Positions 13,227 to 62,879 of a DNA stretch of 64,000 nt are shown here, piece by piece; position 1 is the stretch's first letter, and each line of letters begins with the position of its first letter. Below the pieces are notes generated by a model. That model saw only the letters and a list, made by a program, of their open reading frames with translations. It was not told the DNA's origin and searched no databases. Source of the stretch: Mesostigma viride (taxonomy: Eukaryota; Streptophyta; Mesostigmatophyceae; Mesostigmatales; Mesostigmataceae); assembly GCA_009746045.1 (NCBI GenBank), contig RPFO01000312.1:4402976-4466975 (forward strand), written 5' to 3'. Position numbers and translations under genes: made by a program.

Positions 13227-16200
13227 CTACCCAGCGCATGCCTTGCGCCTGCGAAGTAGAAGCCGCGACATGTCCGAGTGGCAGTGGCGCTCCACGTACG
13301 CAACCGCTAGCTTCTCTATCATGCACCCCGAGGTGACAAGGCCTCGCACCACGACCTCCCTGTAGGGCATGGAGGGAGGGTTCAGTGGGAGGCGTCCATG
13401 GCGGAAGTCCTCCATGTCCTGTGGGCCACACCTGTGCACGCAAATCAGCACAAAGTACAAGCACAACACAGAGTCACCAGGGCAAGAAAAGAACAGTGTC
13501 AGGCAGCGCGCAAGGGAAGATGGAAGGTGTGCTTGCCACCCAAGTGATGTAAAGACGCCAGCGCTTGATTGGCTAGTGACTTTGCTTGCATGGAGAAAAT
13601 ACATGTGTTGCTGACGTAGAAGCGCATCGTAGACAGGATGCGCACACATACATCTGCACGCTTATGCCCTGCAATTACAACTCATTAAGGTGGACCCTTC
13701 TGCACTTACAAGTGGCAAACACCACAAGGCATGAGCCTAGATCCAGACCAGCAAGGACAACAAGCACGCGCCAACGGCCCATCTCGATGCCCGCCCCACC
13801 TATCGCTTTGCAAATGAAACCACCCCTCAGGTGGGAGTCGCCCGCCCCCCCCCCCCCTTACGTACGTGATGGTGAGCCCCCCCCTCCCCCCCCCCTTACG
13901 TACGTGATGGTGAGCGCCCCACCCACCCATTACGTACGTGATGGTGAGCACCCCCACCCCCCTTACGTACATGATGCTGAGCGCCCCACCCGCCCCTTAC
14001 GAACGTGATGGTGCCCCCCCCCCCCCCCTTACGTACGTGATGGTGAGCACCCCCACCCCTTACGTACGTGATGGTGAGCACCCCCACCCCCCCTTACGTA
14101 CGTGATGGTGAGCACCGGATCGCCCTGCCGCTCTCCCAGGCACAGAACGGTGCTGTACCAGCCCTGCATGCCATCACATGTCCACAGGCCACCGGTCGAC
14201 AGCAGCAACAAGGCGTGACGCACATGACACATGAGATACCATTGCAAGGACTGCACGTGACATCATTTGCAGACACCGGCCGGCAACCCATGGCGGTTGC
14301 CAGCGTGGGTTTTCAAACCTCTCACAAGAACGGAGGTCATGGTGACAGGGGACGCAAGCTCTATCCACGCTCGGCATGCCCGAGGTGCCCCAACATTGCC
14401 AGCTACTGCCATGACCTGGAGTCACCCTGCCGGATGATGAGCATACGTTGAGGAGAGCATGGCCACCCTCCCCATCCCCTGATCTGTGCGAATGCTCCTT
14501 CTCCGACTCACTCTCACCACGCCCCCCTCATTCTCATAACGCCCCCTCACTCTCATATGGCGCACCCGATGTGCCCACAAAAAACGCCCATGTTTGCCAA
14601 CATGTGCTCATCCATGCGTGCGCCTCCACCACGGCAGACCGGGGCCGCGGGCGGCACCCCCACATCACCGCCCGTCCGAGGGTCTGCCACCCGCACATCA
14701 CCGCCCGTCCGAGGTCAGCCACCGGTATCCCACCCGAGGGCCATCGTTCTGGCAGCCGCACCTTGTTCCTACCAAGCAGGAAGAGCATCGATGCTGTGGG
14801 GATGGCAGAAACACACATCGGCCCTCCCTCACCATCCACGGGCACCCAACTGGGCCACCAAGCCAGACTCCTATTCCTTGTTCACTGCAGCTCCTGTTCC
14901 TTTGCACACCGTCGTGAGACTGGCCCCCCTACGTGACCACCCCTGCGATTTCACCCCACACGCAGGCCCCACCAGCCACAGCCCGCACACTGCATTGCTC
15001 ACATCCAGCAGCTTCACGCTGCAGTGCTCCGGCGCATCCACCTCCGTGCTGGCATCCACAGGAACGGGGGAGGAGGAGGCAGCGGGCCCCGTGGACGACG
15101 GGTGACTGTTAGGTGACGTTGGCGAGCGAGCGGCCGATGGTGATGATGTCGATGGCTGCGGTGAGGCGGAGGAGGGGCCCACCGCGCGGGGGCCGCTCGC
15201 GGGCCCTGCTCCCCTGGCCACCTCGAGGCGTGCGCGGTGCTGGCGCCGCAGCTGCAGGTGCCAGAAGAGCTGCTGCAGCTGCGCGCACCCCTGCGGCGTC
15301 ATGTACGGCGGCGCGTCGCCTGGCTGGTCGTTTTCTTGATGCAGGAGTGCGTTGAACTGCCTGAGCCTGCGGCAGGGACAAGGGGCGCAGCAGGGAGCCA
15401 TACGTCGGTCATCCGGTCAACCAGGGCGCGTAGAATGCCTGGCAGCGGCCACAGCCACCCTACGCGTGGAAGGACTTGCAGGAACTGTCAACGGTGGCCT
15501 TGCCACTGGAATCATCAAATTGGTTGCCCGTAGGGTTTAGAATACGCCCCCACGCAGGGTCAAGGGTGTCCCATCCATACCATCTTCGTCACCGTGCTCC
15601 TATGGGTTCAACCCATGCTACACGCATCTTCTGCACACATCTTCTACACACATCTTCTACACACATCTTCTGCACACATCTTCTACACACATCTTCTGCA
15701 CACATCTTCTACACACATCTTCTGCACACATCTTCTACACACATCTTCTACACACATCTTCTGCACACATCTTCTGCACACATCTTCTACACACATCTTC
15801 TGCACGCATCTTCTACACACATCTTCTACACACATCTTCTGCACACATCCTCTACACACATCTTCTGCACACATCTTCTACACACATCTTCTACACACAT
15901 CTTCTGCACGCATCTTCTACACACATCCTCTACACACATCTTCTGCACGCATCTTCTACACACATCTTCTACACACATCTTCCACACACATCTTCTACAC
16001 ACATCTTCTACACACATCTTCTACACACATCTTCTACACACATCTTCTGCACGCATCTTCTACACACATCTTCTACACACATCTTCTACACACATCTTCC
16101 ACACACATCTTCTACACACATCTTCTACACACATCTTTTACACACATCTTCTACACACATCTTCTGCACACATCTTCTACACACATCTTCTACACACATC

Positions 16201-19200
16201 TTCTACACACATCTTCTGCACACATCTTCTACACACATCTTCTACACACATCTTCTACACACATCTTCTACACACATCTTCTACACACATCTTCTGCACG
16301 CATCTTCTACACACATCTTCTACACACATCTTCTGCACACATCTTCTGCACGCATCTTCTACACGCATCTTCTACACACATCTTCTACACACATCTTCTA
16401 CACACATCTTCTGCACACATCTTCTACACACATCTTCTACACGCATCTTCTGCACACATCTTCTGCACACATCTTCTACACACATCTTCTACACACATCT
16501 TCTACACACATCTTCTACACACATCTTCTGCACACATCTTCTGCACACATCTTCTACACACATCTTCTACACACATCTTCTACACACATCTTCTGCACAC
16601 GTCTTCTACACACATCTTCTACACACATCTTCTACACACATCTTCTGCACACATCTTCTACACACATCTTCTACACACATCTTCTACACACATCTTCTAC
16701 ACACATCTTCTACACACATCTTCTACACACATCTTCTGCACGCATCTTCTACACACATCTTCTATCGGTTTTCTCTGAATATAGTTTAACGCATGCGGGA
16801 AAGATAGGGCCGCTATGCCTTGGCCTGGATGTGGAAGGCTGTCTGCGACATGGGCTGACTAATTCGATCTGTACAAAGGGTTTCCTGTTCGCCCGAATTT
16901 TCCTTGGATGACCCGGTTGTTTATAAGGGTCGGTGGCTATTTATTAGTGGTCCGAGAAAATTAATTGTAGGTTTTATACGACTTGCTTGCAAAGATTGGT
17001 GTTTGGTTGCACCAGCTGAGGTTAGGTGGGGACCTGTAGGGTCGGCTGGTTGCTTAACGGATCTTTGGCTGATTTGGGTTCTTTAGTGAGTCGTGATTAA
17101 TTATTGTATAGTGGATTCGGACCGGCCCAAGGGGTCGATGGGCGAGTTTTATGTTTGTCAGTCTTGGGAACCTTGTACAACTACCTGTACGGTTAACGCA
17201 CTAGCCTGGGGGTGCGTGGCCACGTTGTTTGTAGTGGCGTTTTCAGCACTGTTCAGGCCAGCGTGTGACGCATGCCGGTGTTACTTAATTTAGGATGATG
17301 TCAGCTTGTGTGTTGGCGGGCCATGCCTTAAAGCAAGCTAGGCAGGCAATGATCCGCAATTGTTTCTTTCCCCTCCCTCCCATTGCTTCTTGCTTCCGCG
17401 TGCGGATTGAGAAACCTTAAGGCCACTGTTAACTGCTGCATTTGTGGCAGGGCTCCACTTATTGTATTCAATCAAATGCTGGTCTTCTTGGGAGCTCAGT
17501 GAACTTAACACACATCTTCTACACGCATCTTCTACACACATCTTCTACACACATCTTCTACACACATCTTCTACACACATCTTCTACACACATCTTCTGC
17601 ACACATCTTCTACACACATCTTCTACACACATCTTCTACACACATCTTCTACACACATCTTCTGCACACATCTTCTGCACACATCTTCTGCACACATCTT
17701 CTACACACATCCTCTACACACATCTATAAAACTTCGATACCATGTTCCATACCACCCTCAACAACATGTTTTGTCTAGTACGGTGATCAGCTCGTGACTT
17801 GCTCACGTGCGCTTAGTTGTGCGCTCACGTGCGCTTGGCTGTGCGCTCGCTGCACAGCGTTCAGCGCATGTCTCCTGCCCCTTCCCGTGTCTGACGGCCA
17901 TTTGCGTCTACATGGCCACCCGCTACTCCCCGATCCCCTGTGCCCCCCATTGCCCCCCCCCTGTGCCCCGTGCGCCCCCCCCTGTGCCCCCCCTGTGCCC
18001 CCCTGTGCCCCCCTGTGCCTCCCCTGGCCCCCCCTGGCCGCGGCTCACGTGATCTTGTATAGCACCACGCAGGTGCGCGCCTCCTCTCGGTGCTCCAGGT
18101 CCAGGAAGCAGACGCCGCCCTCCCCCCACGCGCGCGACCATCGGCCGAAGAAGAGCAGGTGCTTCACCCACGCGTGAGCCACCGCGATGGGAGGGGAGGG
18201 ATCCTGCGAGCCCCTGTTGGCGTGGGTCATGCCAGCCACCTGAGGACACCGCGCCGCGCATGCCAGGGGTGGGAGTCGCAAGCAAGAAGGTCAGGTGCAT
18301 GAATTTCAACAGCAAGGCCATACCAATGTCGCTCCTATCACGATCACTGGGATATACTAGGATAGTTACTAGGATGACTACTAGGATTAGCTTACTAGGA
18401 TAATGTTTGAGATGCTTTGGCCAATTCGAGCAGGGATGGGTGAACTGGAGCCCCTCTACCTCTGAGGGCCCTGCCTCCTCCCCTCGAGGAACTGACCGGA
18501 CAACAACCGAGGAGACATGGCCCAAGGATCCACAAGGCAAGACCAACAAGTAACAAACAGTGGCGAGTGTGCTGCGTACCTGCCCGCCCTGCAGGTAGCA
18601 CAGGAACCGGTCTCGCCACATATTGCTGCCGTACGCCGCGTACCAGACATACATTGATTCGCCCTCACTGGCACCCAGGCCGCCGCCGCCCTCGTAGCTA
18701 CAGGTGCCATCGCCCTGTAGCTGCGATGACACAGGTGACATGCCGGCAAAGCTGTCCATGCCAGAAATTGCGTCTCCCCCGTTCCCATTCGGGGACGTGG
18801 TTTGTGCGCCTCTGCTGGCGCTGGGTGACGCTTGCCCCTCCAGGCGCGTGGCAGATGTGCTCGCGTCAGGGTGGTCCGCCGCCCTGGCTGCTGCGTGCAG
18901 GGATGAGGATCCGGACCGTGAGGCTGGGGAGTCATCACCGGGACTCCCCTCCGCCACCGCGCGAGGCACAGGGCGCGCGTTCGCCGACGAGGACGCGGAC
19001 GCGCGTGAGGATGCGGACACCGACGAGGGCGCCTGCGCTTCATCCGCGCCCACACCCTGCTGCGCAGGGGACGTGCAGGGCGCGGGGACGGGGGGCGATG
19101 GTCGCACGGGGGGGGAGGCAACACGGCCGCGCCCCCGCCCTGCGGCTGCCGCTGCTGCTGCCAGGCTACTTGCCGGTGTCGGTTGTGCGCCGGTCATATC

Positions 19201-22200
19201 CACCAAGCAGCCGCCAGAACGTGGGTTGGATGGCTCAGAAGACGGCCCAATCAGGGCGGCCCGGCGGGCGGCCTTTTGCTCCGCGAAGAGCGTGCCCAGG
19301 AACGGCCCACGGTCACTGTGGTGCCCGCAGCCGCCACCGCCGCCACCACGACCGCCACCGCCACCACCTTGCGTACACAATAGGGGCTCGGCGGTGCTGG
19401 AGTTGGCCCCCAGCGCCGCCGCCAGCTGGGCTGCCAGTTTGGACAGCATCGCCCAGCCAGGCGCCGCCAGGGAGGCCAGGTCGAGGCCTGGCCCTTCCCC
19501 ATCTGCGCACGTTGTGGGCGGCGGGGGCAGCGGGGCACACGCGCGGGACCAGCACGCCAGCTGGGCGTGGGCGCTGTCCTCGCCCCAGCTGGGCGGCAGC
19601 AGGCACCCTGGGGCCGCGGCCTCTAGCAGGATGGACAACACCTGGCCGCACCACGGACACCACACAAGGGCACACAGCGCCATCGCCGTGGATACACAAG
19701 GAAGTGCATGCAGGGTTAGAGCACTGGGTGCCAGGGACACCCAGGCATGGCAACAGGCATTTAGATCAGAAGTATGCCCGCACACCATGTGGCGCAGTCC
19801 TGTGGGAGACTACGTGCGCGGGGTGTGCACGCACGCGCAAGGGGGGAGTTTGCGGCGGAGGACCAGCGCGTGGTGCTCACGCGGGTGGTCTACGCATGTT
19901 TATGGGAGCGCAGGGACGGCGCCGGCAGAAGAGGAGGGTGGGGAACGGTGGCTAGCAAGCGTCACGGGCAGAAGAGGAGGGTGGGGAACGGTGGCTAGCA
20001 AGCGTCACGGGCAGAAGAGGAGGGCGGGGAACGGTGGCTAGCAAGCGTCACGGGCAGAAGAGGAGGGTGGGGAACGGTGGCTAGCAAGCGTCATGGGCAG
20101 AAGAGGAGGGTGGGGAACGGTGGCTAGCAAGCATCACGGGCAGAAGAGCAGGGTGGGGAGCGGTGGCTAGCAAGCGTCACGGGCAGAAGAGGAGGGTGGG
20201 GAACGGTGGCTAGCAAGCGTCACGGGCAGAAGAGGAGGGTGGGGAACGGTGGCTAGCAAGCGTCACGGGCAGAAGAGGAGGGTGGGGAACGGTGGCTAGC
20301 AAGCTTCACGGGCAGAAGAGGAGGGTGGGGAACGGTGGCTAGCAAGCGTCACGGGCAGAAGAGGAGGGTGGGGAACGGTGGCTAGCAAGCGTCACGGGCA
20401 GAAGAGGAGGGTGGGGAGCGGTGGCTAGCAAGCGTCACGGGCAGAAGAGGAGGGTGGGGAACGGTGGCTAGCAAGCGTCACGGGCAGAAGAGGAGGGTGG
20501 GGAACGGTGGCTAGCAAGCGTCACGGGCAGAAGAGGAGGGCGGGGAACGGTGGCTAGCAAGCGTCACGGGCAGAAGAGGAGGGTGGGGAACGGTGGCTAG
20601 CAAGCGTCATGGGCAGAAGAGGAGGGTGGGGAACGGTGGCTAGCAAGCATCACGGGCAGAAGAGCAGGGTGGGGAGCGGTGGCTAGCAAGCGTCACGGGC
20701 AGAAGAGGAGGGTGGGGAACGGTGGCTAGCAAGCGTCACGGGCAGAAGAGGAGGGTGGGGAACGGTGGCTAGCAAGCGTCACGGGCAGAAGAGGAGGGTG
20801 GGGAACGGTGGCTAGCAAGCTTCACGGGCAGAAGAGGAGGGTGGGGAACGGTGGCTAGCAAGCGTCACGGGCAGAAGAGGAGGGTGGGGAACGGTGGCTA
20901 GCAAGCGTCACGGGCAGAAGAGGAGGGTGGGGAGCGGTGGCTAGCAAGCGTCACGGGCAGAAGAGGAGGGTGGGGAACGGTGGCTAGCAAGCGTCACGGG
21001 CAGAAGAGGAGGGTGGGGAACGGTGGCTAGCAAGCGTCACGGGCAGAAGAGGAGGGTGGGGAGCGGTGGCTAGCAAGCGTCACGGGCAGAAGAGGAGGGC
21101 GGGGAGCGGTGGCTAGCAAGCGTCATGGGCAGAAGAGGAGGGTGGGGAACGGTGGCTAGCAAGCGTCACGGGCAGAAGAGGAGGGTGGGGAACGGTGGCT
21201 AGCAAGCGTCACGGGCAGAAGAGGAGGGCGGGGAGCGGTGGCTAGCAAGCGTCATGGGCAGAAGAGGAGGGTGGGGAACGGTGGCTAGCAAGCATCACGG
21301 GAGCGCGGGAAGAAGCACCAGGTCTCCGCAGGTACGGGGATACGAAGGGAGGGGACAGCGGACATGATGACACAGACATTCGCGCCTTAAGATGGGTGCG
21401 AGGTTTTCGAGGAGTCAACCCAACTTAAGGCGTGAACCCAACGTAAAGCGTGAATGGCTCTACTAAAATTTACTAATTTGAACCAAAGATACTACACAAA
21501 CTCTTATGAACTACTTTGAACTTGGATGCCGAAATCCTATGCGACCCAACTTAAGGCGTGAACAAAACTTTAGCCAATCCAACTTAAGGCGCGAATGACT
21601 GTACAAAACAGGAGTGGCAGGCTGGCTGCCCGCGTAACATGAACCTTCCCACCCACCCACCCACCGCTACCCAGGTGTGGCCCCCTAGCCCCCCCGTATC
21701 CCCCCCCCCAGCACACACACTCGCCACGTTGCGCGCTTCAACACCCACCCTAAGCGCCGACCCGCCGTGCTCGGCCATCTTCTTGTCGATCCAGTCAGGG
21801 ACCGCGCGCGCGTACGCCAGGGGGGGCCAGAAGCGCGCGTGCTCTATCACCGCCTGCAGCCGCCATCGCACGAGGGGCACACGCCCAGTGACCAGCATAC
21901 ATGCACGTGGGTGTCACTTGCCCATGGCTGCCGCGGCACGGCAGCCATGGGGTATATGCACAGGGCCTCGTGTTGGTGTGGAGGATTCCCTGTATTGGCA
22001 TAAGGGTGCGGCGGATTCCCTCATGGCCTTGCGGGGGGAAAACCTTGGCACACAGAAAAACCTTCATTCAGTGCACAATGTCCACACCGCCCCCCCCGAC
22101 ACCCCTGCGAGGTGCTGGAGAGCCTGGCAGTGCGCCCACCATCGCGCAGCGCAGCGTGCCAACGTGCCGCGGTTGGTGAGCCGACCATGTGGCAGGGTAC

Positions 22201-27519: not shown

Positions 27520-27603
27520 GGAGAAAATGACCGGCCGGGATTGTGGATCGTTCAATGTGCTAATAGCGCGGCTAGACTGCTCAGAGGCAGCGTAGCTGAA
27601 CAC

Positions 27604-30038: not shown

Positions 30039-30040
30039 TA

Positions 30041-30422: not shown

Positions 30423-30515
30423 TATGACACATGTCAGTCTACATTATATGCCAACTATCTAATGGAAAGACATGACAATTGTTGATCCTTTGTGCTTTTG
30501 CCCGCTCTGCGTGAA

Positions 30516-33500: not shown

Positions 33501-36500
33501 GCTCCTGGACACAGCACGGCGTCAGCGTCGTCGTATCCCATGATGCCGTATCCCTCCCCCTTTCCCCCCCTCCTCCCCTTCCTTCTTCTAGTTATCCACC
33601 ACCAATGACTAGAAGAGCTGCTCTTGCCACGTACCCGCGCGGCGTTCTCATTTCTAATAACTACTTTCTGCGACCACCACCCGCCACGTACCCGCGCGGC
33701 ACAACTGCTGCCATAGGTCGGTGCGCAGAAGGCACACGCACACGGGGGGGCGTCGCACCAGCGCGCGCAACAAGCCGCCGCACGCCGCCATGTGCAGGTC
33801 CGTCTCGCCCGGCCACGCCGTCAGCGACGTCAGCACAACTGATGTCAGGCTGTGCAGCAGCTGCTCCCCCTCGGCACCCCCCAGGCGCGACACCAGCAAG
33901 GGAGGGTAACCGGCTGATGGCGCCTCGCCAGCTGTCTCTGCATCGGTTGCCCCCAGCATGAGGAACGTGTCGGCCCACCGCGCGGCCAGCCACACCGCCG
34001 CTTCCATGATGCGGGGGCTGAGCGCGTGCGCGCGTGCGCCAGAATCCAAGCACAGGAATGTGACGGCCAGCGCCGCATGCGACAGGTTTAGCAGCTGCTC
34101 CGCGACCTCGTTCGCCTCCTCAGAGGAACAGGGAGCCTGCAAGGGAGAGGGCAGGAGGTCGCCTGATGGCCCCCGCAAGACAGCCCCCGAAGCCCCGATA
34201 CTGTTGTGCTGGCCCAGCGTCCCCATGCCCGCCCCCATGGCAGTGTGGCCCTGTTTGCTGCCGAAGAACTCTTCCGGCACGCACGGCAGCTCCCCTCCAC
34301 CCGCATCCGCCAGCACATGCCCCACAATGAGCAGCAGCCAGTGGAGCTCTTCTAAACACTGCACGTGCTTCTCAATGTCCGCACCGCTGGCATCTGCCCC
34401 TCGGGACGCGGCCGCCTGCCTGTGGCCACAGAACCATCCACAAGGGTGCGCCAACGTTAGCAATCACCATTGGTGTGGCCAGGAACATGCCAACGTTCAA
34501 CAAGACCATATGCGTGTTGATGAGAGTAATAGCCGTAGACGTGCAAACGTTCGGTATGACCGTAGAATGCGCCAGTAATATCAACGATAAAGGTGCCGTG
34601 ATTTATAGTAGTATAAGCGTTAAGTGCCAAGATCAATGATGAGCATACACGTGGCAACGTTGTTAATGGCCAGGGCAGCCGCCACCTCAAGGCAACCGCA
34701 CTGTTCATGACATGGGCAGCAACCAGCGCACCCCAATAGACGAGCCCGGAGCCAGTACACGGGTGCACAAGTCCGCACACATACAACCACGCCACAGCAG
34801 TGAACAACACGCCAGTGGCGCATAAATAACCCAGCCTTCCGCAACCCATGCAGCAGGCGTGCCGGCGCCCAGCATATCAAAATGGACAAACATGAGCAAA
34901 TGTGTGCTCTGCCAACCACCGCATTAGCGTGCCCACACTGCCACATACCCACCGTGCATGTGTCCCCTACCAGCCATCGCGCGGCCCCCCCCCGCCCCCC
35001 CCCACCCCCGCCACCCCCCACCCCCACCCCACCCACCCATCCACCCACCCGCCCGCCCGCCCGCCCGCCCGCCCGCCCACCCACGCACCCACCCACCCAC
35101 CCACCCACCCATCCACCCACCCACCCACCCACCCACCCACCCACCCACCCACCCACCCACCCACCCACCCACCCACCCACCCACCCACCCACCCACCCAC
35201 CCACCCACCCACCCACCCACCCACCCACCCACCCACCCACCCACCCACCCACCCACCCACCCACCCACCCACCCACCCACCCACCCACCACCCACCCACC
35301 CACCCACCCACCCACCCACCCACCCACCGCGCGTGCAGCGAGAGCATGCCCCTCCTCTGGTCTACCAGCGCCAGCAGGAACCGCAGCGAGGGCAGCGGCG
35401 TGGCGCGCGCCAGTGCGGCCGCCAGCGCAAAGCACTCATCACGGGCCTCCACCGCGGCCGCGCAGCGTTCCTGCTCTCCCTCATCCTCGGCAAGCGCGCC
35501 GGCCGCCGCTGCGGAGGGTGTAGGGCATTACATAGCAGGAGAGGGAGGGTGAGAGACGTGGCGCGCCCGCCGCCGCTGTGGAGGGTGTAGGGCATGACAT
35601 AGCAGGAGAGGGAGGGTGAGAGACGTGGCGCGCCCGCCGCTGCTGACGTACGCAAGCAACCGGCCACCCACCCACCCACCCACCCACCCACCCACCCACC
35701 CACCCACCACCCACCCACCCACCCACCCACCCACCCACCCACCCACCCACCCACCCACCCACCCACCCACCCACCCACCCACCCACCCACACCCACCCAC
35801 CCACCCACCCACCCACCCACCCACCCACCCACCCACCCACCCACCCACCCACCCACCCACCCACCCACATATGGCAGTGCATGTTAGGAGAAGCGTGGTG
35901 AGGTACGTGGCGCGCCCGCCGCTGCTGGGCATGGCTAGCGCACGTAGCATGCTGATGGTACACGGACGCAACCCGCACAAATCATGCTGGGAGAAAGAAA
36001 GGTACACACGCCCATTGAGTCATATACCCATGGAGCCATATGCCCATGGCGTCACATGCCGATGGCGTCACATGCCCATGGCGTCATATGCCCATGGCGC
36101 CACACATGCATGCAATGAGCGTTCTGCATGGGCATGGACCGGCGCCCATACGCTACAAGAACGACACACGCGGCGGGCAAGCAAAGGACATGTTTGCTTC
36201 ACAAGTCTGCACGTGTGCGTTCGGCCCATCGCACGTACCTGCGCCCATCTGCGATGACACGAACGTGTGGAACACCGCCTGCACCGCACGCAGCAGGCGG
36301 CCCTCCGGATGCTGACCTGGGGACAACGGCATGCCACCCAAAGGGCCCTCCTGCTGCCACACGCCCGCCCTGGCCGCTGCCAGCAGCGACAGCAGTGTGC
36401 CACCGATGACTGCAAACCCTTCCTCAGCCCAGCTGTTGTCTCCACAGCTTGCAGCGCCGCCGCCACCCCCCGCCGCCAGCACCTCCTGGGCCATCTCTGC

Positions 36501-44645: not shown

Positions 44646-44679
<34 letters not shown>

Positions 44680-47600
44680 GCCCCCCGTTCCTTCCTCCCT
44701 GCCTCCTGGCTACTCCCTGCCTCTTGGCTACTCCCTGCCCTTTCTCCTTTCCAATTCAACCAACCACCCAAAGATGCAGCACCTGAGCCCCTCCTTCCCC
44801 CATGGCCCCCTCTCGCCCCCCCACCCCCCCCACCCACCCCATCCCCTCACCCCACCTTAAGCATCCCCTCAACCCCTCCCGCTATTCTGTGGGTCTGTGC
44901 CCTTTTGACCCACCATCCGTTCACACGATGACAGTGGCATACGCACAATGTCCCCGCCTCGCCATGCGCCATGATGGCCCCGCCTCCAAGGTGGCATGCC
45001 TTGGAATGCAAGCAAGGGCAAGGGCCAGGGTGGGCCAGCGTGTGGGCCAGCACATTTAGGCACCAAACTTCTTCTGGCCACCCATGCGCGACTGATGGCG
45101 AGTGCTAGTGGTGGCATGCGCTGTGTCATGCATGCGCAGGTGGTGCTTATGGGCTGGTCGTGTCATGCCACCTGTCACGTGCATGTTCGCAGGTGGTGTA
45201 TGATGAGCTGATGGGCTGGTCGTGTCATGCCACCTGTCACGTGCATGTTCGCAGGTGGTGTATGATGAGCTGATGGGCTGGTCGTGTCATGCCACCTGTC
45301 ACGTGCATGTTCGCAGGTGGTGTATGATGAGCTGATGGGCTGGTCGTGTCATGCCACCTGTCGCGTGCATGTTCGCAGGTGGTGTATGATGAGCTGATGG
45401 GCTGGTCGTGTCATGCCAACTGTCACGTGCATGTTCGCAGGTGGTGTATGATGAGCTGGCGGCGCTCATGGGGGGCTCCATGTCGCCCATCGCCACCGCG
45501 GAGCAGGGACCCACCATCATCCTCATGGCGGGGCTGCAGGGTGTCGGCAAGACCACGGCATGCGGCAAGCTGGCGCTGTACCTGCAGGAACAGGTGATGC
45601 GAATAGGCATGCCTTTTGATGTGATGGGTTCACATCTTGGTGTGACGGGCACACCTCTTGATGCGCCGTTGTTTGCACCCTGCATAGGCTTCCTCATGCA
45701 TGACTCGATGGCGCTGGCATGCGCTGTCTCTGTGTGTGCCTTCCTATCAATTCTAGAGTAATATGACACTTGGTGCCACTCTGCTGCATCGCTTACTTGG
45801 CAGTGCCGCTTGTGCTGCCACAAGGGGGGCCTCCCTTCCTGTTCAGACAAGCAGCCATCCTTCATGCCATGTTTGCGTTCTTGTTAAAACAAGCCGCCAG
45901 CGCCCGGCCATCGTGCTGCAATGTGTCAGCATCCGTGTTGTTGTGGGGCAGTGACCAGCCATGGACCCGCCGACAGGACTTGTCAGGGGCCCCCTGATGG
46001 CGTGTCCGATGGCACTGAAGGCATGCCTTGCAGCGTGTCGTGGAGGCGTTCTGATCCATGCAAGCCCTGTTGCGGCTGGGCACGCCCCCACACTCCCTTG
46101 CTGGCTCTTGCCCATCTCTTGCAGCCGTGCACGTGTCTGTGTTGCCCTGGGTGGACCCGTGCCAGCTGCTGGAAGTGCAACGAGGGGCAGGGCCCAGCGG
46201 ACAGTGCTGGCTCGTTGCGTGCATCGCTGTCACGGATATGTGCAATCAGTGGCATCCCCAGATCTGTTCGCCCGTGACCGTACCTGACCCATGGCACCCC
46301 ACCACGTTTTGGCATCCATCCACCCAACCCTGTGCACCCCGTCCCTGGGCACAAATGGTGCGACCCCTGGCGTGTGAGTGCAGGGCAAGAAGGTTTCCAT
46401 GGTGGCCACCGACGTGCAGCGCCCCGCAGCCATTGAGCAACTGGTCAAGCTGGGCGAGAAGGTGGGCAGGTTTCGGTGGTGGGAAGGCGGTGGGTGCTCC
46501 TTATAACAAGGGTAGTTGTCAAGCTGGGCGAGACGGTGGGTGGGTTTCGGTGGTGGGGAGGTGGTGGCTGCTCCTTATAACAAGGGTAGGTGTCAAGCGG
46601 GGCGAGACGGTGGGTGGGTTTCGGTGGTGGGGAGGTGGTGGCTGCTCCTTATAACAAGGGTAGGTGTCAAGCGGGGCGAGACGGTGGTTGGGTTTTGGTG
46701 GTGGGGAGGTGGTGGGTGCTCCTTATAACAATGGTAGGTGTCAAGCGGGGGGAGAAGGTGGGCGGTGTATTGACAAGGTTGGAGACACGGTGTTTGGTGA
46801 TTAGCATGAGAAGGTGGTAAGTGACGACCCTGTTTGACATGGCATCGCGTATGGCTTTGTCTGGGCACGCTAGTGTGCGTGTGTGCCAGTGCGTCTGCAA
46901 AGTAGGTCAATGCAGCTTAAGACAAGGTGGTGGCTGTGAGCTGCTTCTGGGTTCCTGAGCACCCGCTCAGTAATGGATGCCAATCACCGCCATCATGGCT
47001 ATGTGCACCAACGGCACGCACTGTTGCATGACTTGCACAGGTATATCATTGGATGGATCACGCAAAGCCTTGTGCTGTGTGGGCCACAGGAGCACGGTCG
47101 CGAGGGCTGGCTGCTAGCACCCGGCTGCACAGGGGGCCAAAGTGGGCTGCGGGTAGCGGTGTACAAGCTGTGGCCGCGCACGCAGCAAGGTCCTCAGTAC
47201 AGGCCTATCACAAATGCTTGCGTGTGCGCCCTCGTTATCCCGCTGCCCCCCTCCCCCTCCATTGCCACCCCAATGCCCGCACCTGTCCCCTGCCCTATGC
47301 CGTGCTCATGCAACGCGGCTGTGCAGCTGAACGTGCCTGTGTTTGAGATGGGCACCGACGCGGTTCCAGCCGATATCGCTGCCAAGGGCGTGGCCGCGGC
47401 CAAGGAGCGCGGCGACGACGTGATCATCATCGACACGTCGGGGCGACTGCAGGTAAGAGGGAGGGGGGTGCATAGAAATGGGTGCAGAGACAGGAGGGGG
47501 GGGGGGCTGCAGGAAAGGGGAGGAGGACGTCAGAATTGGGGGGTAGAGAGCGAGGGGGGGGGAGAGACAGGGGTCCAGCATGATGGGGTACATAAGGGTC

Positions 47601-50600
47601 AGCGCCCAAGTCATCAAGGCAGTATGTGTCATGTGGTATGCTTGTTGGAATGCGGTGGTAAAGGAATGTGTAGCGGGTGTTTCTGGGGACCCTGAGGCAT
47701 CTGTGCGGACCCAGTCAGACGGCTGGGTGGCTGCTCTGCTTTTAGGGAAATGCTAGGGGGCATATCTTACAGTGAATCAGCAAGTTCTTGGCATGGTCGT
47801 CATATCTAGTTGGGTAAAGCCAATTGTGCTGCTGTGATCAGAAAAGCAAGCCAAACTCCCTGCCTCTGCCACACATAAACCCAGTCAGTTGTATGGATGA
47901 TTGTTGCCTACGCCAAATGCGATCTGCGTCACAACCAGCGCAGCTGCCTGCCGTGTGGCGATTGCTACCACTCTTACCCTCGCTGCTGCCCCGCGGTTAA
48001 GTACACAGCCAGCCAACACCCACTTTTTGACGTTGAGCGTGCCCCATCGCTGCACAGACTCCAAGCATTCCGGCTGCGTCCGTTATTGATTCCCCTTGCG
48101 CGTGCCCCTTGTTGCTGCCCCTTTTTCCTGCGCGTCGTTGTCGCCAGATCGACGTAAAGATGATGGGCGAGCTCAAGGCGATCAAGGATGTGGTGAACCC
48201 GACTGAGACGCTGCTCGTGGTGGACGCGATGACGGGGCAGACGGCCGCATGTAGGCAACCACAACTTCTTCCCCACCCCCCACCCTTCCCCCCCGCTGGC
48301 ATCCCCTGCCCTGGTCGCTAGTAGCGCACGTGCCACCAAGGAGGTTGATAGTGCACGCCGTGTGCGGCATATCGGGTCATGACGGCACACATCTCCCTGC
48401 ATGATCTCCCTGCATGATGCCGCCTTCGTGTGGAGTCCGACTTCCGTATCGCTGGACCACTTGCAGCGCCGTCCATGCGTTAGCCTCCCTTCTATTACGC
48501 GATGGAATTCTTTTCGTTTAAATATTTTGTCGCTGCTGGGTTTTCTGCTGCTGCTGTTGCGGCCACCTTTTCACCACTCTGGCCCTCTTGCCAGTCTTCC
48601 ACCGCTCTGGCCCCTCTCGGCTTGCCTTGCCCGCCTCCAAGGAGCCCATGGGCATGCCTTGACCTGTTCCTGTGCCCCTGTCGCCGCATCGCTTGCCTTG
48701 CCCAGCGCTGGTGGCCGCCTTCAATGATGAGATCGGCATCACAGGCGCTATCCTGGCCAAGCTGGACGGTGACTCGCGCGGAGGTGCCGCTCTCTCCGTG
48801 TACGAGGTGGGCGGCGGCGGTGTCTACAGGTGGCAGTTGCTAGAATACGGCAGGCCCGCGCCGCTAGGATGGCGGTGGCACTGGCTGGAGTAGGATGCAA
48901 TGCTGCACGCTCTTCATCTACAGGGTGGGGCAGTGTGGGCGCGGCCAGTGGTAGCGGCTCCGATGAGGCTTCGCTCCATTGTCGCAGGACAGAGAGAGCA
49001 CGCGCGCACCGTGCGCTTGTGGTCGCAGGATTGCATCCTTGACCATGCTGTTGCACACGGCAAGGCAGCGTGGTGCCGCATTCGTGTCATCGCCTGAGGG
49101 CCTGGTCCCATCGCCTGTGTGTAGATTGGTCGCCATCGCTGGTGGATGCCCCACTGCACTGCCGCCCGCGAAACCCCTTCTGTGTGCAGGTATCTGGCAG
49201 GCCCATCAGGCACAGTAATCCCCACGTTAAGTTATTGCCGCCAAATTCTCGGCGTCGTAACTTAACGCGGGGACGTAACCTTAGCGGTTGAATTAGGCTA
49301 GCAGCCCACCCCCTCCTCCTCTGATGGACTTCTATACGGCAATAGACAGCTCTCGTCAAGCCCAATCCAGCTGCAGCATCGAAGTCGCCCAATATCCATT
49401 TTTCCGGCCAGATAGTTCGCGAAAGGTGGTTGGTGAGGTATACGCTGCCACAACCTTAAGGCCTCGTAACTTAAGGCGCAGGGCCGTACCCTTAAGAATC
49501 GTAACTTCACTCGCTCACTCGCTCACTCGCTCACTCACTCACTCACTCACTCACTCACTCACTCACTCACTCACTCACTCACTCACTCACTCACTCGCTC
49601 ACTCACTCGCTCGCTCGCTCGCGCACTCACTCACTCACTCACTCACTCACTCACTCACTCACTCACTCACTCACTCACTCACTCACTCACTCACTCACTC
49701 ACTCACTCACTCACTCACTCACTCACTCACTCACTCACTCACTCACTCACTCACTCACTCACTCACTCACTCACTCACTCACTCACTCACTCACTCACTT
49801 ACTCACTCACTCACTCACTCACTCACGCATACACATACATTGCATGCAGGTGTCTGGCAAGCCCATCAAGCTGACGGGCGTGGGCGAGAAGCTGACGGCG
49901 CTGGAGCCCTTCTACCCCGACCGCATGGCACAGCGTATCCTGGGCATGGGCGACGTGCTCACCTTCGTGGACAAGGCGCAGAAGGCGGTGCGTGGGCAGG
50001 AGTGGGCACGCAGAAAAGATCGTGTGCGGTGGTGGTGGTGAAGGAAGGGAAGGGGTAATGGGTCGGCAAATCACAGAAGAGGGTGCCTGGGGGGAGGGGG
50101 GGGGTGACGAGGGTAAATTCATAGAGGCAGCAAAAGGCTGCGTGGATAACTTGTGGGTAAGTTCCGGGGGGCGGGGCATATTGAGAAGGGAAAGGGGGGG
50201 AGAGTAACGGGGGATAAGGTTGTATAAAGGGTGCGCAACGCAAGTTGTAAGTACCATGCATGGGGTACTTCAGATGGGGTGCCTCAGAGCCAACCACGCT
50301 TGCAGGTGTTGATAACAGGGCAGGGCAGGCGGAGGCGGGGGGTGGGGAGATGGTGCTGGGCTCCTCTTGGGAGGAGTTTCTCTTGCATCCGCGCTATGGC
50401 CCTTGTATTGGCACGGATGGCTATTTTCCTGGAATGCGCAGAAGCAGTCATGGAGCAAGCCTTTAATGATTCCCTGAAGAGTTTGCAAGAGGAATAGGTT
50501 TGGGGGGACGTTTAGGGGCATATTGAGGTATGGCTGAGAAGGCAGGAGTGTGCAAGATGGAGATAGCGGGAGAGAAGAGGAGGAAGAGAGGGACGGAGCG

Positions 50601-53600
50601 GCAACGACCAGGGGGTTGCTCCACTGGACAACGACCCGACATCGTTGAGCCAAGGTGGACCGAGGTTGAGCCAGGAAGCCAAGGCTGAATCATGAACAGA
50701 GTCGTGTCGTGTTGTCATCAACTGCGATTGCCTTGTCACCTCCTGTTCTACTCCCATGGCAGTGACTGTTGCAGCAAAGGATTGATCTTGCCATGTCAGA
50801 CTCTCATGATTGGTATGCTCGACTCTGTCATCGTCCCCTTGCCTGTGCACTTGCCCTTGTATGCCATCGTTGGGCGCCATCCGTGTGCACGCGTCGCATG
50901 CGCCACCATAACGAGCGATACCATCCTCCCACGTGCCATCCTTGCGTGCACCTATTATTGTCCACCATGGCCGCGGCCGCCAGATCAAGCTGGACGAGGC
51001 TAAGGAGATCCAGGCCAAGATCCTGGCCGCCAAGTTTGACTTCAACGACTTTCTGAAGCAGACCAAGATGATGAAAGACATGGGGCCGATGGGCGCCGTG
51101 CTCAAGCTGCTGCCGGGCATGAACCAGGTAGGACGCATAGACCTTTGCAATGTGTGCATGAGCCAGGTCTGGCCGTGGACCAGGTGGTGCGTGAATCCGG
51201 TATGATGCGTGGACCAGGTGAGCTTGAACCAAGGTCTTCCTGCTCAAGCTGCTGCCGGGTATGAACCAGGTATGATACCGGGAGCAGCTGTTGTGCATGA
51301 ATCAGGTGGTCTACATGGACCAGGTATGATACCGGGAGCAGCTGTTGTGCATGAATCAGGTCGTCTACATGGACCAGGTATGATACCGGAAGCAGCTGTT
51401 GTGCATGAATCAGGTGGTCTACATGGACCAGGTATGATACCGGAAGCAGCTGTTGTGCATGAATCAGGTAGTCTACATGGACCAGGTATGATACCGGAAG
51501 CAGCTGTTGTGCATGAATCAGGTGGTCTACATGGACCAGGTATGATACCGGAAGCAGCTGTTGTGCATGAATCAGGTCGTCTACATGGACCAGGTATGAT
51601 ACCGGAAGCAGCTGTTGTGCATGAATCAGGTCGTCTACATGGACCAGGTATGATACCGGAAGCAGCTGTTGTGCATGAATCAGGTCGTCTACATGGACCA
51701 GGTATGATACCGGAAGCAGCTGTTGTGCATGAATCAGGTGGTCTACATGGACCAGGTATGATACCGGAAGCAGCTGTTGTGCATGAATCAGGTCGTCTAC
51801 ATGGACCAGGTATGATACCGGAAGCAGCTGTTGTGCATGAATCAGGTCGTCTACATGGACCAGGTATGATACCGGAAGCAGCTGTTGTGCATGAATCAGG
51901 TCGTCTACATGGACCAGGTATGATACCGGAAGCAGCTGTTGTGCATGAATCAGGTGGTCTACATGGACCAGGTATGATACTGGAAGCAGCTGTTGTGCAT
52001 GAATCAGGTCGTCTACATGGACCAGGTATGCTTCAACCAGGTGTGATACATGAACCAGGTATGCATGCTGGTCTCGTTCAACAAGGTTATCCTGCTCAAG
52101 CTGCTGCCAGGCATGGATCGGGTATGCATGGCTGGTTCAAGCTGCTGCCAGGCATGGATCGGGTATGCATGGCTGGTTCAAGCTGCTGCCAGGCATGGAT
52201 CGGGTATGCATGGCTGGTTCAAGCTGCTGCCAGGCATGGATCGGGTATGCATGGCTGGTTCAAGCAACTGCCAGGCATGGATCGGGTATGCATGGCTGGT
52301 TCAAGCTGCTGCCAGGCATGGATCGGGTATGCATGGCTGGTTCAAGCAACTGCCAGGCATGGATCGGGTATGCATGGCTGGTTCAAGCTGCTGCCAGGCA
52401 TGGATCGGGTATGCATGGCTGGTTCAAGCAACTGCCAGGCATGGATCGGGTATGCATGGCTGGTTCAAGCTACTGCCAGGCATGGATCGGGTATGCATGG
52501 CTGGTTCAAGCTGCTGCCAGGCATGGATCGGGTATGCATGGCTGGTTCAAGCTGCTGCCAGGCATGGATCGGGTATGCATGGCTGGTTCAAGCTACTGCC
52601 AGGCATGGATCGGGTATGCATGGCTGGTTCAAGGATGCCTGGCGGCGCGTGCAGCGGCTCATTGCGATCGCGCGTCGGATGTACCCATCCCACGGCCAGC
52701 ATCAGCATGGCCACGTGGTAGTCCTCGGCCTGGTCTTGCCAGTATGTGGTGCAGTGTCACGGCAATAATGATTTGAGTTGATAGTTTGAATGATCATTGG
52801 AGTTGCCATCCCTGGCAGAGTTGCGGGCTGTGTGCAAAGATGCCACCTGTTGCTATTAATAGGGGCGTGCAACGTTTTTCTTGTGACAACTGGAGATGTA
52901 CGGCCCTTTGGTCTCAGTGTGGCCCCACCTGTTGCCGTTGCTGTTTGTCACGGCTACCTCATGGTGCGCATGGCAAAGTGCCCTGCTTGTAATCGTGTCT
53001 CGCGGGCTGCCCAGGTCTTTGTGGCTGGTTGTCGTGCCGTTCATGTCCACACCTTGTGTGTGGTCCCTACCGGATGCAGTGCACGCATCGTCGGTCACGT
53101 GTGCACGCATCGTCGGTCACGTGTGCACGCATCGTCGGTCACGTGTGCACGCATCGTCGGTCACGTGTGCACGCATCATCGGTCACGTGTGCACGCATCA
53201 TCGGTCACGTGTGCACGCATCATCGGTCACGTGTGCACGCATCATCGGTCACGTGTGCACGCATCATCGGTCACGTGTGCACGCATCATCGGTCACGTGT
53301 GCACGCATCATCGGTCACGTGTGCACGCATCGTCGGTCACATGTGCACGCATCATCGGTCACGTGTGCACGCATCGTCGGTCACATGTGCACGCATCATC
53401 GGTCACGTGTGCACGCATCATCGGTCACGTGTGCACGCATCATCGGTCACGTGTGCACGCATCATCGGTCACGTGTGCACGCATCATCGGTCACGTGTGC
53501 ACGCATCATCGGTCACGTGTGCACGCATCATCGGTCACGTGTGCACGCATCATCGGTCACGTGTGCACGCATCGTCGGGCACGTGTGCACGCATGATCGG

Positions 53601-56600
53601 TCACGTGCGCCGCCATCACCGCCCTCGGTGCCACGTCCTTGCATCAGCTGCCACGCAAATTTCTGTTTACAATTGTCAATTCTCTCTTTCCTGTCCCCCT
53701 CCCCACCCCTCCCATGGCCAGATGACACCTGCGGAGATGCGCGACTGGGAGAAGAGCATGGCGCAGATGGAAGCCATGATTGGGTCGATGACCGCAAGTA
53801 AGTCACGATATGCATTCCCGTTGCTTGCGCGCACGCTGCATGTAGAAGCGGTCACACTGCACCCTAAACAGGTGGGGGCGAGGATTGGCTCGGCGGCTGA
53901 CCGTGCGTCGCCCGTGCTGCATGTCCCAAGCATGTCGTCTCTCCCATGCCACCCCGCCCTTTGTGCGCATTGCTTCCACGCAGCGCAAGCCATCCTTGCC
54001 TCGCGACGCCACCGCTGCTGCCTGCAAGTAGAACGTCGTCGTCGAGAACACATTTGTCATGGATTTTGGTGGAGATGGCCATTTTGGCCGCTTGGGGGGC
54101 ACTGTTGGTGGGGCGTTGGGAGGCCGTTGGGGCCTGTGGTGGGGGCACAAGAGCTGGCCAGGCGCGGGCAATTGCGCTTCGCATTTGATCTTCCTCTGCA
54201 GGTGCCCTGTACAGGTATGCTAGCGCGGTAGCAAGTATAACCGTGTAGACCGTCCTCCTCTTGTTCTCGGCTTCCTCTAGTGGCCACAGGTCCCAGCTGC
54301 CATCTCTCTTCCTTCCTGCCCCTAGTAGTCGCTCCTGGTTGAGGTCCTTGTTGAGGTCCTGGCGGTGTGGTGCTTAGTCTCTTGTGGTCAAGCTGGCGTC
54401 CCCTTAGTGTCCTCATACGATCCCTTTGTGCCCCTCGCCCCAACCCCCGCCCCCCACCCCCACCCCCCACCCCCACCCAACCCCTGCCCAATCCCTGCCC
54501 AATCCCTGCCCAATCCCCGCCGAACCCCCACCCTCTCGACCGCAACCCATGCAGAGGAGCGCGCCAACCCAGACCTGCTTGCTGAGTCGGCCTCACGTCG
54601 CCAGCGCGTCGCCAAGGGTGCCGGCACCAGCGAGGCTGAGGTACGTGCGCAAGTGTTGTGGAAATTGGTGGGGGGGGCACTAGTGAGGATGTGCTAGCGA
54701 TGCAACGCGATGCCAGCTGTCCCCCCGTATCGTGCTCACCTTGCTGCCCCTGTGCCGGCTCTGGGGATGCCTGCACCTGGTGTGTGGAGAACAGCAGGGC
54801 GCAGGGTGCACTTGCAAGGGCACTGTGAGGGAAAAAGTTGAATATCTGAAGCTTGGACCCGCGGGGGTCGGCAAGCGCAGGTCTGTGGGTAGACACGGAA
54901 TCCCTCCTCTGCTATCGATGGACTTGGTGGTGTGCCACTGCAGCCATGGCTACATTGAGCGCCACCAGTCTCGACCCTAGCGCAGTTGTGCAGCAGGTAG
55001 GTGGGAGCGCAGCAACGTGCATACTGAACATACGGCATGGGTGCGCTGTTATGCATCTAGGGGAAGCATTGTGGGAGGCACATAGGGCGGCTTCCTAGGG
55101 AAGCACGGCGTGCCATGTGCGGCGTGGCAGCTACGCGCGTAGGGTGGTATACGGATCGCGTGCACCAGCAAGCTATTGGAGTGTGTGCGGCGTGGCAGCT
55201 ACGCGCGTAGGGTGGTATACGGATCGCGTGCACCAGCAAGCTATTGGAGTGTGTGCGGCGTGGCAGCTACGCGCGTAGGGTGGTATACGGATCGCGTGCA
55301 CCAGCAAGCTATTGGAGTGTGTGCGGCGTGGCAGCTACGCGCGTAGGGTGGTATACGGATCGCGTGCACCAGCAAGCTATTGGAGTGTGTGCGGCGTGGC
55401 AGCTACGCGCGTAGGGTGGTATACGGATCGCGTGCACCCGCAAGCTATTGGAGTGTGTGCGGCGTGGCAGCTACGCGCGTAGGGTGGTATACGGATCGCG
55501 TGCACCCGCAAGCTATTGGAGTGTGTGCGGCGTGGCAGCTACGCGCGTAGGGTGGTATACGGATCGCGTGCACCCGCAAGCTATTGGAGTGTGTGCGGCG
55601 TGGCAGCTACGCGCGTAGGGTGGTATACGGATCGCGTGCACCCGCAAGCTATTGGAGTGTGTGCGGCGTGGCAGCTACGCGCGTAGGGTGGTATACGGAT
55701 CGCGTGCACCAGCAAGCTATTTGAGTGCAAAAATCGGGTAGACCGACCGTTACTTCGTCATTAGTGGAAATGCTGCCGTGGTTGACATCACGACGGCGGG
55801 GTACCTTGTGCCTTCCGCGGCGATGCCTGCACCATTCGTTTACAGGTCCTAGGTAGCCGGTCTTCCCCTGGGGCAGGTGTCACCCTTGTATTCCACACAA
55901 CCCTCGCCATGGCCGGCTCCTGTCCAACCTTTCCCCTTACCCTTTGGTGTGTTTCGCTCAGCGCAGCTTCCTCCCTCGTCACCCCTCCCTCGCCGCACGC
56001 AAAGCCTCCCTCCCTTCCCCATCCTCATTCGTTACCCTCCTCAACCCTCCGCGCCCCTATTCCTCCCCCCGCCCCCCCCCCTTGTTCTTCCTAACCACTA
56101 CCCTTTCCTCTCGCAGGTGGCCAGCCTGCTCGCCCAGTTTGCAGACGTGCGCGTGCGCCTGCAGAACATGGCGCGCGTGCTGGCGGCGGGCGGCAAGGGC
56201 GTGGTGCCGGGCATGGGCGACATGCCCGACACCGAGTCGGCGCTCATGGTCTCGCGCCGGGTACGTGCGCGCGATGGGTGGGGTTTGTAGCCCTCAGGCT
56301 GCTGCGTGCATGTGACGCAGTCACGTGCTCATTAATTTATTAATGGTGCCGCACTGAGTGGGTGAGGGGTAAGGTGACGGACTAGATGCGCCGGGTACGT
56401 GGGCATAGAGGTAGTGTGTGCGTTGAGGTAGTGCGATGTAGCTTATGGGAACTGCACAGTGGTTGTGCGGCCATATGCCGCCGCGTATATGTGATCCAGC
56501 AGCTAAGCCGCGCCGCACCTGGGACACCTTGCTTCCATATGCGTGCCGCGCCGCACAGCGGGGGGGTGCCTGTTTCTCGCGGCGAAGAGTGGTTTACTTG

Positions 56601-57294
56601 GTGCGCCTGTCTCTTGGCTGGTTGCCTTCAGAAAAGCTGTCCCAATGCCGCCCTGTGGACCGTTACATGCATGAGCTTACATTGCAATTGTGCTGCCAGG
56701 CGTGAGGCAGGCATGTGGCCGCCATCAGGCATGCCTATGATAGTTAATGCCCTGAGAAGTTGTCCAGTTTCAAAGGCCAGGCTGTTGCTTTCTAACGTAA
56801 CCTTGCTGTGGTACCTGTCAATGGCTAGCCTGGCATAGTTTGGGTGGGCATATTCTTTGTCCACCACTGCGTCTCCTTGATATTCTTTCTCCACTTGTCT
56901 CCTTGATATTCTTTGTCCACCACTGCGTCTTATGTGGGATGCAAATGCTGTGGTGTGCATGCTTTGGTTGGAGACGTGAGCGGTCACCAGGGGGATTGAT
57001 GCTTGCCGTCCAGATGGCTCTGGGGGGCACCTGACTACGGGTTTGCAAGGCAACTCCAGTTTGTCTTTTCTGTGCCCTGCCTTGGAAAATCAGCTCACAT
57101 TTCTGTGCCATCCTGCCAATGTGTGTGGCAGCTGTTTGCAGCGTTAATGAATGGTTCGTGGTGCGTGGATGTATGTCTCCTGCGCATTGCTGTATCCCTG
57201 GCTACAGCCGTCGCCAGGGACTGCCAAGAGAAAGAAGCTGGTGGTGGCCCAGAAGGAGAAGAAGACGGGTGGCTTGGCAGGAATGTTCTCTTGA
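42556..57294 (+). CDS. cpSRP54: Chloroplast signal recognition particle 54 kDa GTPase (cpSRP54)
   Basis: This GTPase of the plastid SRP targets thylakoid proteins, including LHC proteins together with cpSRP43 and cpFtsY. Fourteen exons join in phase: 42556-42781, 43491-43558, 44414-44515, 45441-45593, 46384-46461, 47327-47452, 48148-48250, 48706-48806, 49850-49987, 50984-51127, 53722-53797, 54555-54640, 56117-56260, 57208-57294 (543 aa). Residues 1-56 are His/Ala/Ser/Gln-rich, a plausible transit peptide. MFDSLTKRI (57) opens the N domain. GLQGVGKTT (163-171), DVQRPAA, DTSGR (245-249; Ser replaces the usual Ala) and [11 protein letters not shown] (303-) are the GTPase motifs. [18 protein letters not shown] links to the M domain ([14 protein letters not shown]). 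The tail TAKRKKL (520-526) resembles the basic plant motif that binds cpSRP43, supporting the plastid assignment. A stop directly precedes the ATG. Introns 3, 5, 8, 10 and 12 hold arrays. Confidence 0.93.
44648..44679. repeat. (CA)n dinucleotide run
   Basis: About 16 CA units in cpSRP54 intron 3. This is an ordinary microsatellite. Confidence 0.95.
45137..45458 (+). repeat. Splice-acceptor satellite before cpSRP54 exon 4 (62-bp unit, five acceptors)
   Basis: Each 62-bp unit ends ATGTTCGCAG and is followed by GTGGTGTATGATGAGCTG, which is the first 18 nt of exon 4 (VVYDEL). Junction copies start at 45,193, 45,255, 45,317, 45,379 and 45,441, exactly 62 bp apart. Only the last continues into exon 4. 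A diverged partial copy precedes at 45,137. Since 62 is not a multiple of 3, use of an upstream acceptor shifts the frame and soon meets a stop. Confidence 0.95.
46444..46770 (+). repeat. Splice-donor satellite after cpSRP54 exon 5 (74-bp unit, five donors)
   Basis: The end of exon 5 (GTCAAGCTGGGCGAGAAG, VKLGEK) and its donor GTGGGC are repeated with 74-bp spacing at 46,444 (real), 46,518, 46,592, 46,666 and 46,740. The unit also contains CTCCTTATAACAAGGGTAG. Later copies carry one to three changes (GCGGGGCGAGAC) but keep GGTGGG. Confidence 0.95.
49187..49271 (+). repeat. Decoy copy of cpSRP54 exon 9 start, followed by an inverted repeat
   Basis: At 49,191, after GTGTGCAG, the sequence GTATCTGGCAGGCCCATCA matches the true exon 9 start at 49,850 (VSGKPIK) with only a few differences in 21 nt, reading VSGRPIRHS before a stop. 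It is 659 bp upstream of the real exon. Directly after it CCCCACGTTAAGTTA (49,221-49,235) pairs with TAACTTAACGCGGGG (49,257-49,271). Confidence 0.75.
49507..49826. repeat. (CACT)n tetranucleotide array, about 80 copies
   Basis: It lies in cpSRP54 intron 8 and ends about 24 bp before the exon 9 acceptor. There are CGCT variants at the left edge and near 49,596-49,622. Together with the CT-rich sense strand it forms an extended polypyrimidine-like tract ahead of the 3' splice site. Confidence 0.96.
51128..52027 (+). repeat. Donor-derived 54-bp minisatellite in cpSRP54 intron 10, 14 copies
   Basis: It is preceded by a second copy of the exon 10 end (CTCAAGCTGCTGCCGGGTAT, then GAACCAG) at about 51,243-51,269. 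From 51,270 the 54-bp unit GTATGATACCGG(A/G)AGCAGC... runs 14 times. Each unit contains both ATGAATCAG|GTGGT and ATGGACCAG|GTATGA, variants of the true exon 10 junction ATGAACCAG|GTAGGA at 51,127. 54 bp equals 18 codons without stops, so a 500-codon open frame runs through it. Confidence 0.93.
52096..52636 (+). repeat. Donor-derived 41-bp minisatellite in cpSRP54 intron 10, 13 donor copies
   Basis: The unit GTATGCATGGCTGGTTCAAG continues CTGCTGCCAGGCATGGATCGG. The second half matches the end of exon 10 (TCAAGCTGCTGCCGGGCATG, then AACCAG) with few differences, and the following GTATGC is a donor. Donor copies run from 52,122 to 52,614 at exact 41-bp spacing. Some units have AACTGCC or CTACTGCC in place of CTGCTGCC. 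Confidence 0.94.
53081..53605. repeat. 20-bp minisatellite (GTGCACGCATCATCGGTCAC), about 26 copies
   Basis: It lies in cpSRP54 intron 10, before exon 11. CATCGTC and CATCATC versions are clustered. Open frames through it are spurious. There is no spacer diversity and no exon edge in the unit. Confidence 0.96.
55115..55727. repeat. 68-bp minisatellite, nine copies
   Basis: It lies in cpSRP54 intron 12. The unit starts GTGCGGCGTGGCAGCTACGC and includes GGTATACGGATCGCGTGCAC. Copies begin at 55,117 and every 68 bp to 55,661. Inner copies share CACCCGCAAG where outer copies have CACCAGCAAG, indicating block duplication. I see no exon edge in the unit. Confidence 0.96.
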
Positions 57295-62870: not shown

Positions 62871-62879
62871 AAATAAGAG

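Follow-up and report, generated by a model that had tools for sequence, protein, structure and literature searches.

Were the tandem repeats in the introns of the streptophyte alga Mesostigma viride copied from the splice junctions that they adjoin, or do they overlap them by chance? The question is raised by a stretch of 64,000 nucleotides (here, the window) in contig RPFO01000312.1 (positions 4,402,976 to 4,466,975, forward strand) of a 439.9-Mb assembly with 2,243 contigs, which carries genes for HDAC, exportin-4, and cpSRP54. From the arrays in these genes and from a sample of other loci, it appears probable that the structures are mirage-type minisatellites, that is, local tandem duplications that straddle the splice donor and, less often, the acceptor.

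Tandem arrays at exon boundaries in the window

To place exon edges, three M. viride proteins were mapped on the window, namely P0002 (cpSRP54), P0122 (HDAC), and P0242 (exportin-4); arrays were detected with Tandem Repeats Finder (TRF). In four arrays, with units of 62, 74, 67, and 31 to 39 bp, the outermost copy was found to be the real exon boundary, and each array contains 15 to 18 nt of exon. The HDAC exon at 14102..14163 (minus strand) ends at 14102 (CAC/GTACGT, the slash marking the boundary) in the outermost of about eight copies of an array at 13843..14116, also minus strand, with a unit of 31 to 39 bp (34/67 bp in TRF); the array takes in 15 nt of exon and spans -15 to 257 relative to the donor. 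On the same strand, the exportin-4 exon at 35328..35508 starts at 35508 (CCGCAG/CGG) within an array of 2.3 copies of a 67-bp unit (35494..35645; 15 nt of exon). The other two are in cpSRP54, on the plus strand. The exon at 45441..45593 starts in the last copy of a 62-bp array (45145..45458; 5.1 copies, 18 nt of exon), and VVYDEL is encoded four further times upstream of this acceptor. The exon encoding ...QLVKLGEK (46384..46461) ends (AAG/GTGGGC) in the first copy of a 74-bp array (46444..46762; 4.3 copies, 18 nt of exon).

Two further arrays follow the cpSRP54 exon at 50984..51127 (plus strand), which encodes ...LKLLPGMNQ and has the real donor CAG/GTAGGA. A copy of this exon end (LKLLPGMNQ) followed by GTATGA was found in the intron at 51243..51269, overlapping the start of a 54-bp array (51261..52030; 14.3 copies) whose units each contain CATGAACCAG/GT twice, in diverged form. 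A 41-bp array (52096..52633; 13.1 copies) contains a diverged exon end (KLLPGM) and GTATGC. These arrays, which begin 133 and 968 nt into the intron, respectively, both carry derivatives of the copy at 51243-51269. Allowing up to two mismatches, CATGAACCAGGT occurs 40 times in the window, and 35 of these matches, the real donor included, lie at 51118-52060 (chance expectation for such matches, mean 8.17, largest 15), and the real donor is followed by 34 decoys of the form CATGAACCAG/GT. When the copy at 51243-51269 was used to search the genome, it was found beside its source only (94% over 35 bp; E, 2.4e-6). In all, two such segments, both from one intron, were located at their own locus only; the genome-wide search scored a single candidate place for each and skipped very common words, so that short copies were possibly missed.

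The original prediction had the repeat unit include the exon end and the real splice site, with the real boundary outermost; this describes the four arrays above and not the 54-bp and 41-bp arrays. It also had such arrays in at least six introns. Five introns carry long-unit arrays derived from the boundary, and six is reached only by counting weaker cases. One weaker case, at the exportin-4 donor 35328, is a simple TGGG microsatellite that begins at the donor. Seen as (CCCA)n at 34997-35328 of the window (minus strand), its onset is exactly at the donor GCG/GTGGGTGGGTGGG, the donor hexamer seemingly being its seed.

Copies of exon edges in other loci

Boundary copies were sought in 11 CCT/Cpn60 loci (Pfam PF00118; one was an allele of another and was excluded) and 10 kinesin loci (PF00225), with exons that we predicted from a codon and splice-site model. 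A 30-nt window over each junction was compared, ungapped, with 300 bp of the adjoining intron, at least 22 of 30 matches being scored as a copy. In the null, 130 introns (26 from the window) were exchanged between genes in five rounds, giving 650 comparisons; it used 26 of the 27 window introns of earlier models, and the final window count of 31 is from the mapped proteins. The copy and array tests were devised after the CCT/Cpn60 results and the ungapped version after the kinesin scores, nothing having been fixed beforehand.

Counted were 72 of the 80 predicted CCT/Cpn60 introns and 32 of the 38 kinesin introns. Excluded from the former were six introns of L044 (the allele of L045), whose donors 508 and 2023 scored 16 and 24, the last intron of L045 (donor score 14, a would-be positive), and one intron of L036 that follows a simple-sequence exon (12; null, 16). 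Six kinesin introns were deemed unreliable; among them is the one of L054 at 5441, whose donor scored 14. A doubtful simple-sequence predicted exon of L042 was retained.

A donor copy was identified in 21 of 72 introns of the CCT/Cpn60 set and in 8 of 32 of the kinesin set, or 29 of 104 across the 20 loci, with the copy 30 to 300 bp downstream; swapped introns gave 3 of 650. Acceptor copies were found in 6 of 72 and 0 of 32 introns (6 of 104; swapped, 0 of 650). The original prediction of like recurrence at donors and acceptors is thus not supported (29 versus 6 of 104; Fisher's exact test, P = 2.6e-5). A gapped variant of the test agrees for the CCT/Cpn60 set (donors, 22/64; acceptors, 6/64). 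Among the 31 window introns, the ungapped test scored six donors and two acceptors, so that both edges are affected and donors predominate in each sample, and donor copies are present in 35 of 135 introns across three groups of conserved genes. Two of the six window donors, 49987 (22/30 matches) and 33692 (23/30), are weak, with single copies each, and a third, 35328, is the TGGG run. The cpSRP54 exon that ends at the former (49850..49987, plus strand; VSGKPIK...) has one diverged copy of its acceptor edge, single and dispersed, 660 bp upstream at about 49178-49207 (fit score 18 of a maximum of 30; null maximum, 12). In a further kinesin gene, retrieved for a different reason, one of four introns contained a strong copy of its donor (fit score 28). 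The CCT gene L042 (G000:C1407:77600-87599), with one doubtful predicted exon, has donor copies in six of nine predicted introns, far above the mean.

In young cases the intron half of the unit is duplicated in register with the exon half: 59/59 nt were aligned in L038 at 4113, 48/50 in L043 at 6385, and 44/47 in cpSRP54 at 46461. As both halves are in register, these cases arose by local tandem duplication of a segment spanning the donor. The null for this alignment could draw the tested intron itself; where its maximum equals the score, it is no real null. In a separate observation, most of a 4.5-kb intron of L043 (G000:C1468:8077300-8085000) is occupied by 56 copies of a 53-bp unit that end 9 nt short of the predicted acceptor.

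Duplication at the donor and in the intron interior

When the test window was moved along the 104 introns, 29 of 104 donors had a copy, as did 1 of 101 positions lying 45 nt within the exon; the counts were 28 of 104 at +10 and 19 of 103 at +20. The rate was 12 to 16% from +30 to +130 and 7 to 10% from +160 onward, with 6 of 104 at the acceptor and 4 to 14% on its intron side. An alternative is therefore that the donor is no hotspot: tandem duplication would be even along the intron, with duplications across donors tolerated and those across acceptors purged, and copies derived from the exon would stay visible longer since only one side decays, the exon original drifting little. The interior rate of 7 to 16% at 22/30 is what this alternative would lead one to expect. 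A simple simulation of one-sided decay predicts a donor excess of 1.7- to 1.8-fold, and the observed donor-to-interior ratio was 2.45 at 22/30 and 1.52 at 26/30, so the pairwise excess is near that expectation.

The overlap of arrays with boundaries is less exposed to this bias, and it alone supports a donor hotspot. Among arrays with units of at least 25 bp in the other loci, 10 of 34 touched a donor, against 2.05 expected from permuted positions, a count reached in 0 of 5,000 permutations, as the original prediction of overlap above chance would have it. Acceptors were touched by 2 of 34 (2.03 expected). With the donor expectation doubled to allow for decay, the excess remained (Poisson P = 0.0095). 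With at least 6 nt of exon required, 7 of 35 arrays qualified at a score of at least 50 (2.14 expected; P = 0.006) and 7 of 29 at a score of at least 100 (1.80 expected; P = 0.001). Short-unit arrays (24 bp or less) touched donors in 0 of 78 cases in the other loci and 1 of 25 in the window. Of 33 arrays away from junctions, 21 lay towards the 5' half of the intron, which is no significant bias (P = 0.16). There is thus moderate evidence of a donor hotspot of long-unit duplication, with none at acceptors, and the absence of any hotspot is a lesser, if quite real, possibility. That boundaries are duplication-prone may hold for arrays at donors; it does not extend to acceptors, and much of the pairwise excess may reflect slower decay of exon-derived copies.

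Besides that pairwise excess, several results weigh against the reading of the structures as donor-straddling duplications. The array test in the window alone was not significant, either for donors (2 of 11 arrays touching against 0.56 expected; P = 0.11) or for acceptors (2 of 11 against 0.57; P = 0.11); significance therefore rests on the other loci. In several older cases (L038 at 1435 and L042 at 2699 and 6366) the exon copy is 88 to 92% identical and the intron part was not aligned above the null, so simple tandem duplication is shown for only part of the cases. In the allelic pair L044/L045, a 40-bp duplication is common to both alleles and shows no change in copy number, in this one pair; L058 and L059 are 99.95% identical.

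With TRF arrays making up 16.5 to 31% of intron bases, ordinary minisatellites might be expected to overlap boundaries by chance, and in the window alone the overlap is not significant. This explanation is very unlikely, as the original prediction had argued, being contradicted in the sample taken both by the donor copies (29/104 against 3/650 with swapped introns) and by the arrays at donors.

Fate of the copies and proposed mechanism

The copies might instead be functional decoy donors or regulatory elements under selection. In 34 cases the GT is kept in 29, the copy equals or exceeds the score of the real donor in 19, and mismatch at the GT is 0.07 versus 0.22 across the last 18 exon nt. 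This explanation is hardly tenable: mismatch is low for several nucleotides on either side of the GT, as a centered window would yield, and several copies are recent. Mismatch is similar by codon position (0.196, 0.201, and 0.250), and the shift of the copy modulo 3 (0, 1, or 2 in 10, 13, and 11 cases) reveals no frame preference; the exon copies are without coding constraint. If used, the copy donors would cause a frameshift or stop in 29 of the 34.

Under the duplication model that we favor, a segment of mostly 30 to 175 bp spanning the splice donor would be copied by replication slippage or template switching. Splicing would stay with the first, exon-proximal donor, leaving the exon unchanged for that reason, and the extra copy would end up in the intron, where it would either decay as neutral DNA or seed more copies and form an array. 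Repeated rounds would lengthen the intron from its 5' end. The spliceosome presumably chooses the first donor, because M. viride database proteins of all three window genes skip the array copies. Selection may remove duplications at acceptors, since splicing would often end at the first copy that it reaches and the mRNA would gain sequence.

Intron gain, R-loops, and intron length

The original prediction linked the arrays to intron gain by duplication of AGGT-containing segments, R-loops, and bloated introns. Births of new introns by such Rogers-type duplication would fit the 41 of 135 acceptors that are followed by GT, and a route of this kind, starting from mirages, is proposed by the amphioxus authors (PMC3087553). 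This alternative has minimal probability, as the donor region resembles its own acceptor region above the 99th percentile of the null in just 1 of 135 introns and the best copies lie 31 to 292 nt past the donor (34 cases).

Intron starts are G-rich; in 90 introns (window and CCT/Cpn60), GC skew falls from +0.40 after donors to +0.08 by +300. As a driver, R-loops find no support, since introns with a donor copy are no more skewed over their first 100 nt (0.334; n = 35) than those without (0.268; n = 100; P = 0.26). A mirror-image skew was observed before acceptors in the same 90 introns (-0.36 to -0.39, about zero by -200).

Introns with a donor copy are longer in the other loci (median, 799 bp [n = 29] versus 575 bp [n = 75]; P = 0.018). 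Arrays with a period of at least 25 bp make up just 11 to 16% of intron bases, so duplications explain the bloated introns at most partly. For the published genome of strain NIES-296 (441.8 Mb, 2,363 scaffolds), an intron length of 1,141.9 bp is given, with repeats as 30.1% of intron space (PMC6947507).

Gene models

The chance that the real boundaries lie elsewhere is next to negligible: the CCT/Cpn60 and kinesin models were predicted and at least one retained L042 exon is simple sequence, against which the edges of the three window genes agree with M. viride database proteins. The cpSRP54 translation (362 amino acids) is 100% identical to Mv08862-RA.1 (EukProt, jgi/Mesvir1), the exportin-4 query (823 amino acids) matches Mv08861-RA.1 at 100%, and the HDAC query (842 amino acids) matches Mv00570-RA.1 at 98%. 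Mapping of the three proteins gave 14, 12, and 8 exons. All residues were placed for cpSRP54 (567/567) and exportin-4 (1,350/1,350), each model having one surplus residue, in one at the start and in one at an ambiguous CAGCAG acceptor. The HDAC model is identical to the protein at 996 of 1,039 residues; it leaves out the first 27 residues, and one donor was moved 30 nt to fit the protein.

Comparison with known systems

Introner elements are sequences with splice sites that lie inside introns. By contrast, the M. viride units shown vary from gene to gene, and the two segments searched, both of one intron, were reported at their own locus only, with one candidate place scored for each. Reportedly, the potato RdRp gene is a case of intron gain by tandem duplication. 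The Rogers model, as cited in PMC3087553, has introns gained by tandem duplication of exon segments that contain AGGT; tandem duplication of sequence carrying a splice signal is common to both, whereas in M. viride existing introns grow. The closest likeness is to the amphioxus mirages, which PMC3087553 and PMC3902484 describe in the globin genes BflGb6/BflGb9, Adh3, TnC, and PGBD5 as minisatellite-like tandem duplications over intron-exon boundaries, 5' and 3', with varied units and splicing reported as undisturbed. In M. viride the duplicated unit also spans the exon-intron boundary, at both 5' and 3' edges. The mirages, as described there, are in single genes of a chordate, whereas here the organism is a streptophyte alga with copies at the donor of 35 of 135 sampled introns, a strong donor bias, and many single diverged copies besides arrays. 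The lineage, prevalence, and donor bias are new as far as the open-licence literature shows, mostly through titles and the beginnings of abstracts.

A structure previously reported for a handful of lancelet genes is thereby found in the plant lineage, where it can be measured genome-wide, and the donor copies form a countable record of splice-site duplication as well as decoy donors for splicing to ignore. Intron lengthening is mostly credited to transposons. Tentatively, and with more doubt than confidence, we suggest that duplication across donors could be a pervasive, continuing, and directional process that lengthens M. viride introns from the 5' end, with the spliceosome picking the exon-proximal one among up to 35 near-identical donors. 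If this is true, the genome would offer a natural experiment in how 5' splice sites are chosen and introns grow.

Other features

In an HDAC intron, the arrays at 15618-16764 and 17508-17725 share a 13-bp unit and are separated by about 740 bp of other composition, resembling an insertion into one array. Long open reading frames at 4873-9315 and 61203-62876 of the window (plus strand) resemble a non-LTR (long terminal repeat) retroelement endonuclease and reverse transcriptase, as judged from the list of reading frames, and the first adjoins a (CAATT)n array. Outside the window, L005 (G000:C2011:1347332-1348840) has a full-length, uninterrupted match to the Cpn60 family and may be an intronless gene or part of a foreign contig.

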